The notes under the pieces are model-generated. The model saw nothing but the letters and a program-made list of their open reading frames with translations, was not told where the DNA came from and searched no databases. This document shows positions 35,482 to 61,287 of a stretch of 64,000 nucleotides of DNA, piece by piece. How positions within the stretch are numbered: the stretch's first letter is position 1; each line of letters begins with the position of its first letter. This stretch comes from Dermatophagoides farinae (taxonomy: Eukaryota; Arthropoda; Arachnida; Sarcoptiformes; Pyroglyphidae): the NCBI RefSeq assembly GCF_024713945.1, contig NC_134678.1, positions 5,456,001 through 5,520,000 on the forward strand, given 5' to 3'. The translations under genes and the position numbers were made by a program.

Positions 35482-35976
35482 ATGTCATCACTAGATTCTT
35501 TTGCTGGTTTAGGTGGTTCAAATGAAAATAGCCAATCGCAACCGATGGATATTCATGATTCACCATTGACAGCTAATGATGAAGACAAAGCAACAATTGC
35601 CGATGAATCTCAACCAGAACAATCGTATCTTGAAAATGATCCAATCTTTTCTACAGCTGGTCAACAACTTATCGATTTCTTACAATATCTTGAAGATTAT
35701 CAACCAACCATACCAGATTCAGTTACAAGTCATATAATGCATACATCTGGATTCAATACAAATGATACACGAATATTACGTTTGGCTTCATTGGCTAGTC
35801 AAAAATTTATTGCCGATATTGCTAATGATGCTTTACAACATTGCAAAATGCGAACAGCATTGTCACAGAATAAAAAGCAAACAAAAGATAAACGTTATAC
35901 TTTGACATTTGAAGATCTTGTTCCAGTGTTGAGCGAATATGGAATTAACATTAAAAAACCACAGTATTTCTACTAA
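35482..35976 (+). CDS. Taf10: TAF10, TFIID/SAGA histone-fold subunit
   Basis: Histone-fold subunit shared by TFIID and SAGA. It is a single exon of 164 residues. An acidic, disordered N-terminus (about 60 residues) precedes the conserved core [17 protein letters not shown], then [24 protein letters not shown], which is nearly identical to the animal family, and the C-terminal [24 protein letters not shown]. The start is the first ATG. It is divergent from Vps37 and convergent with CENP-A (181 bp between stops). The nearby genes include another histone-fold gene (CENP-A) and, 23 kb away, an H2B-like one; no functional link is implied. Confidence 0.96.
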
Positions 35977-36157: not shown

Positions 36158-36646
36158 TTAACGGTTACAAATATCGGAAAGACCACGAATACGTCGAACC
36201 AATTGCATGTCTTCAACTTTAATCGTTATACGCTTTGAATTTGAAGCAACAATATTCGAATCTTCAAACAATGAGATCAGATAATTTTCGGCCATCTCTT
36301 GTAAAGCCAATAAGGCCGTTTCTTTCCAACGGTAACCGATCTGTGGACGCAAATCTTCCAGGATATCTTTTACCAATCTATTTTATTAATTGAATAATAG
36401 AATTATTATTCAACAGATAATTCAATAAATTATTTTATGTTTATTTTGAATAATTAATTCACATTACCTCATAAATGGAAGTTTTTGAATTAATAAACAA
36501 GTTGTTTTTTGATAGAATTTAATCTCTTTGAGTGCACGATTTTTATCCCTTCGTTTACGTAATGAATCTGAATGTCGTTTTTTCGGGGTAAGCGATTTTC
36601 GTGGCGTGAAATATTTTCGCCCCAGTTTGCTATTTGTTCGAGTCAT
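36158..36646 (-). CDS. CENP-A: CENP-A / CenH3 centromeric histone H3 variant
   Basis: Centromere-specifying H3 variant. Minus-strand exons 36468-36646 and 36158-36377 (90-bp intron, split Arg codon) give 132 residues. The N-tail of about 37 residues is basic and unlike H3 (contains FTPRKSLTPKKR). The histone fold then reads ALKEIKFYQKTTCLLIQKLP, ETALLALQEMAENYLISLFE and VEDMQLVRRIRGL. Compared with canonical H3 (QDFKTDLRFQSSAVMALQE), loop 1 (EDLRPQIGYRWKETALLALQE) is two residues longer and has the Trp found at that place in human CENP-A (FNWQAQALLALQE). Both are CENP-A hallmarks. An upstream TTTTTTTCAG at 36661-36670 may be a 5'UTR intron acceptor. It is convergent with TAF10. Confidence 0.9.
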
Positions 36647-37263
36647 TTTGTGTTTATATTCACTGAAAAAAACTGGAATCCCGTATGAAGTCAAAGATTA
36701 GATAATCGATAATTAATAATAGAAACCAGAAAAACGTCAAGTTGAAAATTTTCGTTGAAACAAAATCTAGAACATTGAATCACGTCAACGTTTTGTTTGT
36801 ATTTGAGTCAAAAAGTGCTCAATGCCAAGCGCGGGCAAAAATCTTCAGCTCAAAATTCACAACGGTTTTTTTCTCGCATTTGAAAAAATCGACCGTTCAA
36901 AAATGACGTTCGTCGAATTTCAAAATCCTGAAATATGAAAAGATTTTTGTTTTTATTTCGTAGATCTAAAAAATTATTATATTATATATTTACATTTGAA
37001 AATGACAGCTATTCGATTATGCCTGGTGAAAAAAAATGTTAGTTCAACCTAATTCGATTAGCATTAATTATGGAAATAAATGTCATTTTGTTTCTTACAT
37101 CTAAATCATTCAATCAAATCAATAAAGCCGTACCTGGTGTTTTTAAAGCAAAATTTTCAACTTTTTTCCTTACAAATTTTTGTTTGTCAATTTGTATTTG
37201 TAATTCATGTTTTTTCGGCTATAATGAATCAAAAAATATCAAGAAATTTGAAATCAATAAGAT

Positions 37264-59259: not shown

Positions 59260-61050
59260 ATGTCAAAAAAAAGTGCACCGAAAACATTATCGAACGAAAA
59301 AATTGAATCGGATCCAAACGATTTGGCTGTGAAAAATCAAAATGACCAATCATTTAGTTTTGTTACCAAACGGCCAGTACGCATTTCGAATGCTTCAACA
59401 CTAATTTTAGATTCGCCGATTAAATCGGAAATTCCATCTTCATTATCATCATTCTCAATGCCATCATCATCACCGTCATTTCGTAGAGGTTCAGCATTTT
59501 GGTCAAGTCCAGAACGTTTTGATGATGATGGATATCATCATCCATTGAAAGGAATAATTTTTAAAATAAAATCAACTATGAAAATGGTACAACCTCGTAC
59601 ACCGGAATTTGATCCACCGATGATTGTTGATGATCAATTTGTAACACGTAGAATAAGAATATCTGAAGCACCTACATTAGTACTCAGTGAACTATCTAGT
59701 GATTCGTCAACTAGTCCACCACCATCACCAATACGACAATCGTCTGTTGTTTCGGAGCCACTACTTTCGATGAAATATCAGCAAAAAATATGGACTGACG
59801 AAAATCAAAAATTTCATGAAACCGTTGAAGTATTGCCAAAAGGCGATACATCGACTAATATGAAAGTAACAGATAAATCAGCGAAAATTCCATTCAAACA
59901 ATTAACGGTAACAATGAATGATCAACAAAAACAAGATAATGGCATTAAAAAATTCGAAAAAATTATTACTAGTACACCAAAAAAAGAAATAGTTAACAAT
60001 GATCAATCATATGAACATATAATAATAGAATTTGATGAAACAAGACGAAGAGAGGATGATGTTGCTCGACCACCACCACCATTGGTTGTTGCAAGTAATC
60101 CATCCACAAGTGATGATGGTTCATTACGTTATTCTTCTTATGCTCCTGGCCGTAATATAAATTCTAAAACAAATCTTGATGAGAGTAAATCACGGCCTTT
60201 GATGGCTAATGAATCGGAATCGACGAAATTACTACCAAGTCTGGTAGATATTGACGATTGGAATGATCGACAAAATTTGCATACATTGTCATCATTTGAA
60301 ACAACTTCTCATACAAAAATGATTCGAACAAAACACCTAAAAAGTGGTGGTCTATCATGGCGTTATCCGTCTTATGATGAAACGGGAATTATAGATTCAA
60401 AGACAAACATATTGGACAGCAATAAATTTGAAACAAAGAAATTACCATTGATTGAAGATAAAAAAATAGACAAATACCCGCAAAAGTCGTCGGTTAAAAT
60501 TGAAATTAGCAAAAGAACACCTGAATCAAACGAAAGCAGTAAAAGCATTGATAGCATTCAAATCTCTTCAGTTTCCGATCGACCAGCAAGTCTAGTTGGC
60601 ACTCGATCAGATCGTCAAAGTCAAAGTAAAACATCGTCGATTGCGAGAATTCAACAACGGCGAAGTCGAACTAGATCAAAAAAATTTCGTGGACCATTAG
60701 TTGCTCGTTTGTCTCGACCAAATCGTCAATTGCGACGATTCATTCATAGAATGTTTCATTCAATTATCAATACTCATGATGACGGCAATCAACCAAAAAT
60801 GATGATTAGTAGTGATTCAATCGAAATTCTAAATTCAATGGCTAAAGAAATCATACGTAAATATGCTGAATATGCTGATCAATTAATATTATATAGTGGT
60901 CGTCAAAAAATGGATCGTTGGGTTTCATTTTCAACATTAAATATGTTATTGGCTCCAATATCACATCGAACAAAGCGATCCATTTTCAATATTATTGGCG
61001 AACATGGATATTATCATGATCAAAGTGAAATAAAAATTATGAGACAATGA
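59260..61050 (+). CDS. Uncharacterised 596-residue protein with C-terminal H2B-like histone fold
   Basis: I do not recognise this as a named gene. It is a single long exon from the ATG at 59260; a longer frame from 59218 lacks an ATG. Residues 1-480 are disordered, Ser/Lys/Arg/Asp-rich, with Ser-Pro and Thr-Pro sites and two duplicated motif pairs. One pair is FVTKRPVRISNASTLIL (about residue 34) and FVTRRIRISEAPTLVL (about 127). The other is RYSSY..NINSKTNLDES and RYPSY..IIDSKTNILDS. A basic patch (RRSRTRSKKFRG) precedes residues 485-596. These read like a histone fold: FIHRMFHSIIN, MMISSDSIEILNSMAKEIIRKYAEYADQLILYSGR and VSFSTLNMLLAP. They match H2B in order and spacing (YIYKVLKQV, GISSKAMSIMNSF, EASRLAHYNKR, ITSREIQTAVRLLL). 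A chromatin role is inferred. It ends 237 bp before the Rabaptin ATG. Confidence 0.75.
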   Translation: MSKKSAPKTLSNEKIESDPNDLAVKNQNDQSFSFVTKRPVRISNASTLILDSPIKSEIPSSLSSFSMPSSSPSFRRGSAFWSSPERFDDDGYHHPLKGIIFKIKSTMKMVQPRTPEFDPPMIVDDQFVTRRIRISEAPTLVLSELSSDSSTSPPPSPIRQSSVVSEPLLSMKYQQKIWTDENQKFHETVEVLPKGDTSTNMKVTDKSAKIPFKQLTVTMNDQQKQDNGIKKFEKIITSTPKKEIVNNDQSYEHIIIEFDETRRREDDVARPPPPLVVASNPSTSDDGSLRYSSYAPGRNINSKTNLDESKSRPLMANESESTKLLPSLVDIDDWNDRQNLHTLSSFETTSHTKMIRTKHLKSGGLSWRYPSYDETGIIDSKTNILDSNKFETKKLPLIEDKKIDKYPQKSSVKIEISKRTPESNESSKSIDSIQISSVSDRPASLVGTRSDRQSQSKTSSIARIQQRRSRTRSKKFRGPLVARLSRPNRQLRRFIHRMFHSIINTHDDGNQPKMMISSDSIEILNSMAKEIIRKYAEYADQLILYSGRQKMDRWVSFSTLNMLLAPISHRTKRSIFNIIGEHGYYHDQSEIKIMRQ

Positions 61051-61287
61051 TAACAATCATTATTTATGATTTAAGACATAATAAAACATTATTATTTTTT
61101 GTCAAAAAAAATATCATAGAAATTATAATATTCGCGCCACAATATCTAATTTAATTTGTAACATTTATTATGAAAGTTTCAATTACGGTGCATATGTTTT
61201 CGTATCGTGACAATCGTATAATGAGCATCTTTTCAAGTTTACTTGAATTTTTTTTAATTCAATTCAACAATATATAAACAAACATTG

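Follow-up and report, generated by a model that had tools for sequence, protein, structure and literature searches.

A Dermatophagoides farinae Gene for a 596-Residue Protein with an H2B-like Segment in Its C-Terminal Domain

Introduction

In the 64,000-nucleotide stretch of Dermatophagoides farinae DNA analyzed here (the window), one long open reading frame (ORF) had been described from the letters alone as a giant histone-like protein: an H2B-type domain at the C-terminus of a head of about 480 residues. This locus raises the question of whether such a protein really ends in a histone fold, of which type, and what it would do. We found that the gene is real and that its product resembles H2B over loop 1 and one helix. 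We tentatively propose a scaffold that is anchored to chromatin, evolves fast, contains an H2B-type histone fold in diverged form, and is CENP-T-like in layout only.

Results and Discussion

The Gene and Its Surroundings

The ORF (table 1) begins with an ATG at 59260, and its stop codon ends at 61050. Its frame stays open for 617 codons, for which the chance at the base composition of the window is ~2e-22, and codon preference, trained on five neighboring coding stretches, was above zero in this frame only and in all three thirds of the ORF. Together with the AATAAA at 61080, these observations bear out the 596-residue product first read here, although an upstream 5' exon may exist. The GC content by codon position was 0.42/0.41/0.19, compared with 0.42-0.48, 0.26-0.36, and 0.19-0.32 in the neighbors. 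Genes for SBDS, UBFD1, and ATG101 lie on the 5' side, and a Rabaptin gene lies on the 3' side. No second copy was found in the mite genome (62,435,336 bases, 22 contigs) at E values up to 10, the first pass yielding 2 and 1 candidates.

Table 1. Features of the gene and its product (positions in the window)
Feature	Position	Strand	Residues	Remarks
Gene ORF	59260..61050	+	1-596	596 codons plus stop, uninterrupted
Head repeat 1, first copy	59359..59511	+	34-84	Core FVTKRPVRISNASTLIL
Head repeat 1, second copy	59638..59760	+	127-167	Core FVTRRIRISEAPTLVL
Head repeat 2, first copy	60121..60186	+	288-309	SLRYSSYAPGRNINSKTNLDES; weak
Head repeat 2, second copy	60355..60420	+	366-387	SWRYPSYDETGIIDSKTNILDS; weak
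Basic stretch entering putative alpha1	60622..60753	+	455-498	15 K/R, no D/E; pI 12
Putative alpha1	60721..60768	+	488-503	NRQLRRFIHRMFHSII; no better than shuffles
H2B-like alpha2	60805..60903	+	516-548	ISSDSIEILNSMAKEIIRKYAEYADQLILYSGR; the H2B signal lies here and in the last part of loop 1
Putative alpha3 and last helix	60922..61005	+	555-582	Unscored by the H2B alpha3-alphaC profile
AATAAA poly(A) signal	61080..61085	+		30 bases 3' of the stop

The H2B Signal Is Carried by Loop 1 and Alpha2

A profile of 11 H2B sequences scored 16.1 bits against the last 129 residues, a value that none of 20,000 shuffles attained (best shuffle, 14.8 bits), and hhalign aligned the domain with H2B over 42 columns (P = 1.1e-4, probability 56%). 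When 258 ORF segments with a length of at least 60 residues, from the window, L044, and L046, were ranked for H2B, the protein came 1st with E 0.0014; because it had been picked out of the whole window, this and the other H2B statistics call for further correction. The same segments placed it 92nd for H3, 104th for H4, and 67th for CENP-T, and the H2A search over them returned no row for it. In Pfam, Histone was the top family both for the domain alone (E 0.022, with near-ties DUF6561 at 0.046 and HK_sensor at 0.054) and for the whole protein (E 0.13, with Desulfoferrodoxin at 0.16), in each case below significance, and the score of 15.5 bits missed the Histone gathering score of 26.4. Similarly, H2B was the top match of phmmer against the PDB, at a nonsignificant E of 0.052 followed by an engineered protein at 0.072, and it made up four of the seven rows.

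The sequence-only reading had aligned H2B across alpha1, alpha2, and alpha3. When the domain was cut three ways, the alpha2 score was reached by 1 of 5000 shuffles, whereas the alpha1 score was reached by 1497 of 5000 (AlphaFold placed a low-confidence helix there), and a profile of H2B alpha3 and alphaC gave no score with the matching part of the protein. Thus the central part of that alignment held and its flanks were not confirmed: the H2B signal comprises ~42 residues of loop 1 and alpha2, where the protein shares with H2B (PF00125) and with two divergent H2B variants of the mite, L021 and L030, the pattern ISS....I.NS...I......A..L..Y..R and the predicted span of alpha2. In a MAFFT alignment, in which its identity to three H2Bs was 20, 18, and 13%, loop 1 of the protein was extended by eight columns, and 11 more were added after alpha3; the longer loop 2 noted earlier did not appear. 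Judged by sequence, the resemblance to H2B is real, but narrower than had been claimed, and H2B is the best-matching histone type for the domain.

Specificity of the Signal

With a single canonical H2B profile, 24 shuffles reached the score of the domain. The corresponding counts out of 20,000 were 10 for L021 and 165 for L030, 68 for Dr1, 1906 for TAF12, 8260 for TAF9, and 16713 for TAF10; for H2A, H3, and H4, they were 12809, 2057, and 6678. We also ran a panel of 15 single-sequence profiles with nine queries and 2000 shuffles each. The fraction of shuffles reaching the domain was 0.0005 for H2B, 0.001 for L021, 0.0035 for Dr1, and 0.007 for L030, the three H2B profiles being mutually dependent; it was 0.089 (not significant) for TAF12 and between 0.16 and 0.83 for each of the remaining ten profiles, including H2A, H3, H4, TAF9, and TAF10. 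There was no response to the profile of an NF-YB exon (0.383), a family that we take to be H2B-type. As queries, L030, Dr1, and TAF12 responded more strongly to the H2B profiles than the domain did, and TAF10, although known to have a histone fold, gave weaker H2B signals. Stretches of rabaptin and SBDS, run as two non-histone controls, gave scattered values of 0.009-0.04 (lowest, 0.009 and 0.024), and the joint pattern of H2B, L021, L030, and Dr1 all at or below 0.007 was absent from both.

A TAF or NF-Y profile outscoring H2B had been named as the finding that would overturn the H2B assignment; we looked for one, and H2B stayed best. The Pfam models of TAF9, TAF10, TAF12, and Dr1 gave no match to the protein at E values up to 10, and we rejected these four identities; the genome has separate TAF10 (Pfam TAF10 E 3.7e-40), TAF9, and TAF12 genes, and its Dr1 was named by eye within PF00808. 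TAF12 shares with the protein a long head and a C-terminal histone fold, but the mite TAF12 is a gene of its own (L033, TFIID_20kDa E 5.1e-29) and the similarity falls short of significance. Dr1/NC2-beta (L034), whose fold we take to be H2B-type, is weakly similar in alpha2, but it is short, carries its histone fold at the N-terminus, and passes Pfam PF00808. TAF12 has been termed H2B-like, in the part of PMC12262449 available to us.

The main rival to any histone fold is that a non-histone helical domain has come, by chance or convergence, to hold one amphipathic helix like H2B alpha2, in an unrelated lineage-specific nuclear or regulatory protein. The confinement of the signal to one helix and the near-ties around the Pfam E of 0.13 for the whole protein would fit this explanation, as would the far higher scores of the known histone-fold sequences of this genome: its TAF9, TAF12, Dr1, NF-YB exon, L021, and L030 are, unlike the protein, all clearly above a Pfam cut-off (for Pfam Histone, L021 scores 60.6 bits and L030 46.4 bits). 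Chance does not readily account, however, for an H2B score beyond all 20,000 shuffles, for the first rank among the 258 segments, or for a panel pattern that neither non-histone control reproduced, and we consider it somewhat unlikely.

Predicted Structure

AlphaFold, run on the single sequence of the C-terminal domain, returned a model with a mean pLDDT of 54.5 and a pTM of 0.38. Its low-confidence helices (12-38, 51-79, 90-96, and 102-115 in domain numbering) follow the order helix, long helix, short helix, helix, and the one at 51-79 spans the H2B alpha2 stretch, the bounds of which are those that we assume. Foldseek and VIA-align with this model had no histone among the matches listed. The three-helix histone fold proposed for the domain therefore gained a helix in the right place for alpha2 but is unproven, because the model is of low confidence and its listed matches hold no histone, which would also suit a chance resemblance. 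Adding up the three explanations that include one, we regard a histone fold of some kind as probable.

The Head

The head (residues 1-480) had been called basic and S/T-P-rich. Its eight SP/TP sites compare with 8.3 expected, so the second description does not apply; the first holds for a weak excess of K+R over D+E (75 vs. 62) but not for residues 1-400, which are near neutral (25/24 in residues 1-200 and 30/31 in residues 201-400). The net positive charge is concentrated in residues 401-498. Six of the eight SP/TP sites fall in residues 1-160, as they do in 249 of 5000 shuffles, and there are four [ST]Px[KR] sites compared with 1.3 expected (194 of 5000 shuffles reach four). Two pairs of repeats, with the consensus sequences FVT[KR]R..RIS.A.TL.L and S.RY.SY...I.SKTN, show a weak duplication of motifs, near which CDK-type sites occur. 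With cut points scanned, full shuffling equaled the best repeat in 10 of 400 cases and local shuffling in 7 of 400, and after that repeat was masked, 23 of 400 scan-corrected shuffles were as good as the best one left. The composition suggests that the head is disordered, and a PDB search with residues 1-200 gave no match. No Lys/Arg-rich or SPKK-repeat tail was found in the head, and the idea of a sperm protein gained no support.

A Proposed Chromatin-Anchored Scaffold and Its Relation to CENP-T

According to the explanation that we tentatively favor, the diverged H2B-type fold and the basic stretch preceding it would attach the protein to DNA or chromatin, most probably paired with an H2A-type partner in a handshake dimer. 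The 480-residue disordered head would then be a flexible arm whose duplicated short motifs recruit another protein; some of these motifs adjoin CDK-type sites and may thereby be under phospho-control. Such a protein would presumably be nuclear and evolve fast, and its mode of action would be CENP-T-like in layout rather than that of a histone packing DNA in nucleosomes.

The earlier view that this architecture is found in no named family was wrong, because CENP-T has the same layout, with motifs at the N-terminus of a long head and a histone fold at the C-terminus (PMC12678787, in the part available). Like the protein, CENP-T (PF15511) combines a long head, a basic stretch, and a C-terminal helical domain at a similar length, the human chain having 561 residues, of which the query matched 459-561. 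By sequence, membership in CENP-T failed. The search of the genome with PF15511 (CENP-T_C) gave 20 matches, all of them histone loci except one TAF9, and the protein was absent from them; with a profile of human and chicken CENP-T, 2836 of 20,000 shuffles reached its score. It is nearest to H2B, whereas the best PF15511 matches in the genome are H4 and H3. The two-helix extension by which CENP-T binds CENP-HIKM has no clear counterpart, one low-confidence helix being predicted after alpha3.

The protein might still be the mite CENP-T diverged past sequence recognition; its fold would then sit on centromeric DNA, and its head would bring in Ndc80 or Mis12, controlled by CDK. The likeness in layout and length (596 vs. 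561 residues), the basic stretch 5' of alpha1, and the clustering of SP/TP sites in the first 160 residues agree with this proposal, and the PF15511 search brought up no other CENP-T. Ndc80 is present in the genome (E 1.6e-16), and CENP-C is probable: a candidate matched with E 9e-5 and, at 28.5 bits, fell just short of the cut-off of 29, in a search for which 8 of the 14 control prokaryotes also had matches below the cut-off. The available part of PMC12678787 reports ticks with CENP-T, one with an altered predicted fold and others with different arrangements, in which CENP-W was not found; it names the tick CENP-Ts UniProt A0A224Y4D1 and A0A293LVR6, proposes that CENP-T folds were remodeled in insects and in ticks, and mentions no CENP-T of dust, mange, or spider mites. 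In our searches of the genome, CENP-W had no match, CENP-I and CENP-N had none (nor did the control genomes, so that absence is not implied), and CENP-H gave two sub-threshold matches, suggesting that the complex may be lost. Given this, the failed profile searches, and the preference for H2B, we consider a diverged CENP-T unlikely.

The probable CENP-C gene (L046, G000:C3:4469909) has a long acidic region, and its ORF presumably encodes a C-terminal cupin-like domain and a CENP-C-like motif.

An H2B Outside the Nucleosome?

H2B would also be the best match if the protein were an H2B variant of the nucleosome whose tail is exceptionally long, for example one of the male germline. In the available part of PMC8857922, the germline H2B variants of mammals have tails of different lengths, and in some of them most of alphaC is missing. 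The C-terminal helix is kept even in the divergent variants of the mite, and its residues PGEL, then A, EG, and V, are invariant among six H2Bs (four from this genome); the protein lacks P, G, E, L, A, E, G, and V, which argues against a plain H2B variant despite those mammalian cases. Compared with H2B, it has no recognizable alpha1, alpha3, or alphaC. Loop 1 of H2B contacts DNA, and that of the protein is longer by about eight residues; the 480-residue head is not a DNA-neutralizing tail. The gene also differs from those of H2B in its poly(A) signal, and no histone 3' stem-loop was found at the locus at the Rfam gathering score, which recovers it at only one of four histone loci. We consider a nucleosomal role quite unlikely.

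To return to the chromatin-anchored scaffold, a bolder form of it, which we regard as very improbable, is that in acariform mites the H2B-derived fold would have left the nucleosome and would anchor a scaffold arm, kinetochore-like or chromatin-based, to DNA, as a functional analog of CENP-T that is H2B-type rather than H4-like. Its context is a genome with Ndc80, a probable CENP-C, and no detected CENP-T or CENP-W. If the histone fold is true, the gene presents an H2B-type fold that has escaped the nucleosome and been fused to a long signaling head, and a concrete candidate for the way in which mites tether proteins to chromatin; if the resemblance is due to chance, the product is an ordinary lineage-specific disordered protein. 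The gene makes it testable whether acariform mites kept, lost, or replaced the CENP-T linker.

Other Histone-Related Genes in the Genome

About 23 kb from the gene, on the reverse strand of the window (36158-36700), lies a divergent H3-like gene of two exons (with Pfam Histone, one exon gives E 5.4e-15 and the other 1.3e-4), which is a candidate for CENP-A (cenH3) and adjoins the TAF10 gene (35482-35976, forward strand). More divergent H3-like genes or fragments occur at L008 (C3:5334144), L009 (C12:5125), and L010 (C2:544017), and the mite therefore has several non-canonical H3 sequences. At L036 (G000:C21:191000-193200), a divergent H2A-like gene and a divergent H4-like gene with a changed H4 tail stand head-to-head; H4 variants are seldom reported in metazoans, according to the available part of PMC3156773. 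The H2B variant genes L021 (C14:381898) and L030 (C16:63790) are divergent but of normal length, and both retain the alphaC helix. Two H2A genes on C9 (L018 and L019) have ~22 extra in-frame codons 3' of RLLRKG, perhaps an intron.
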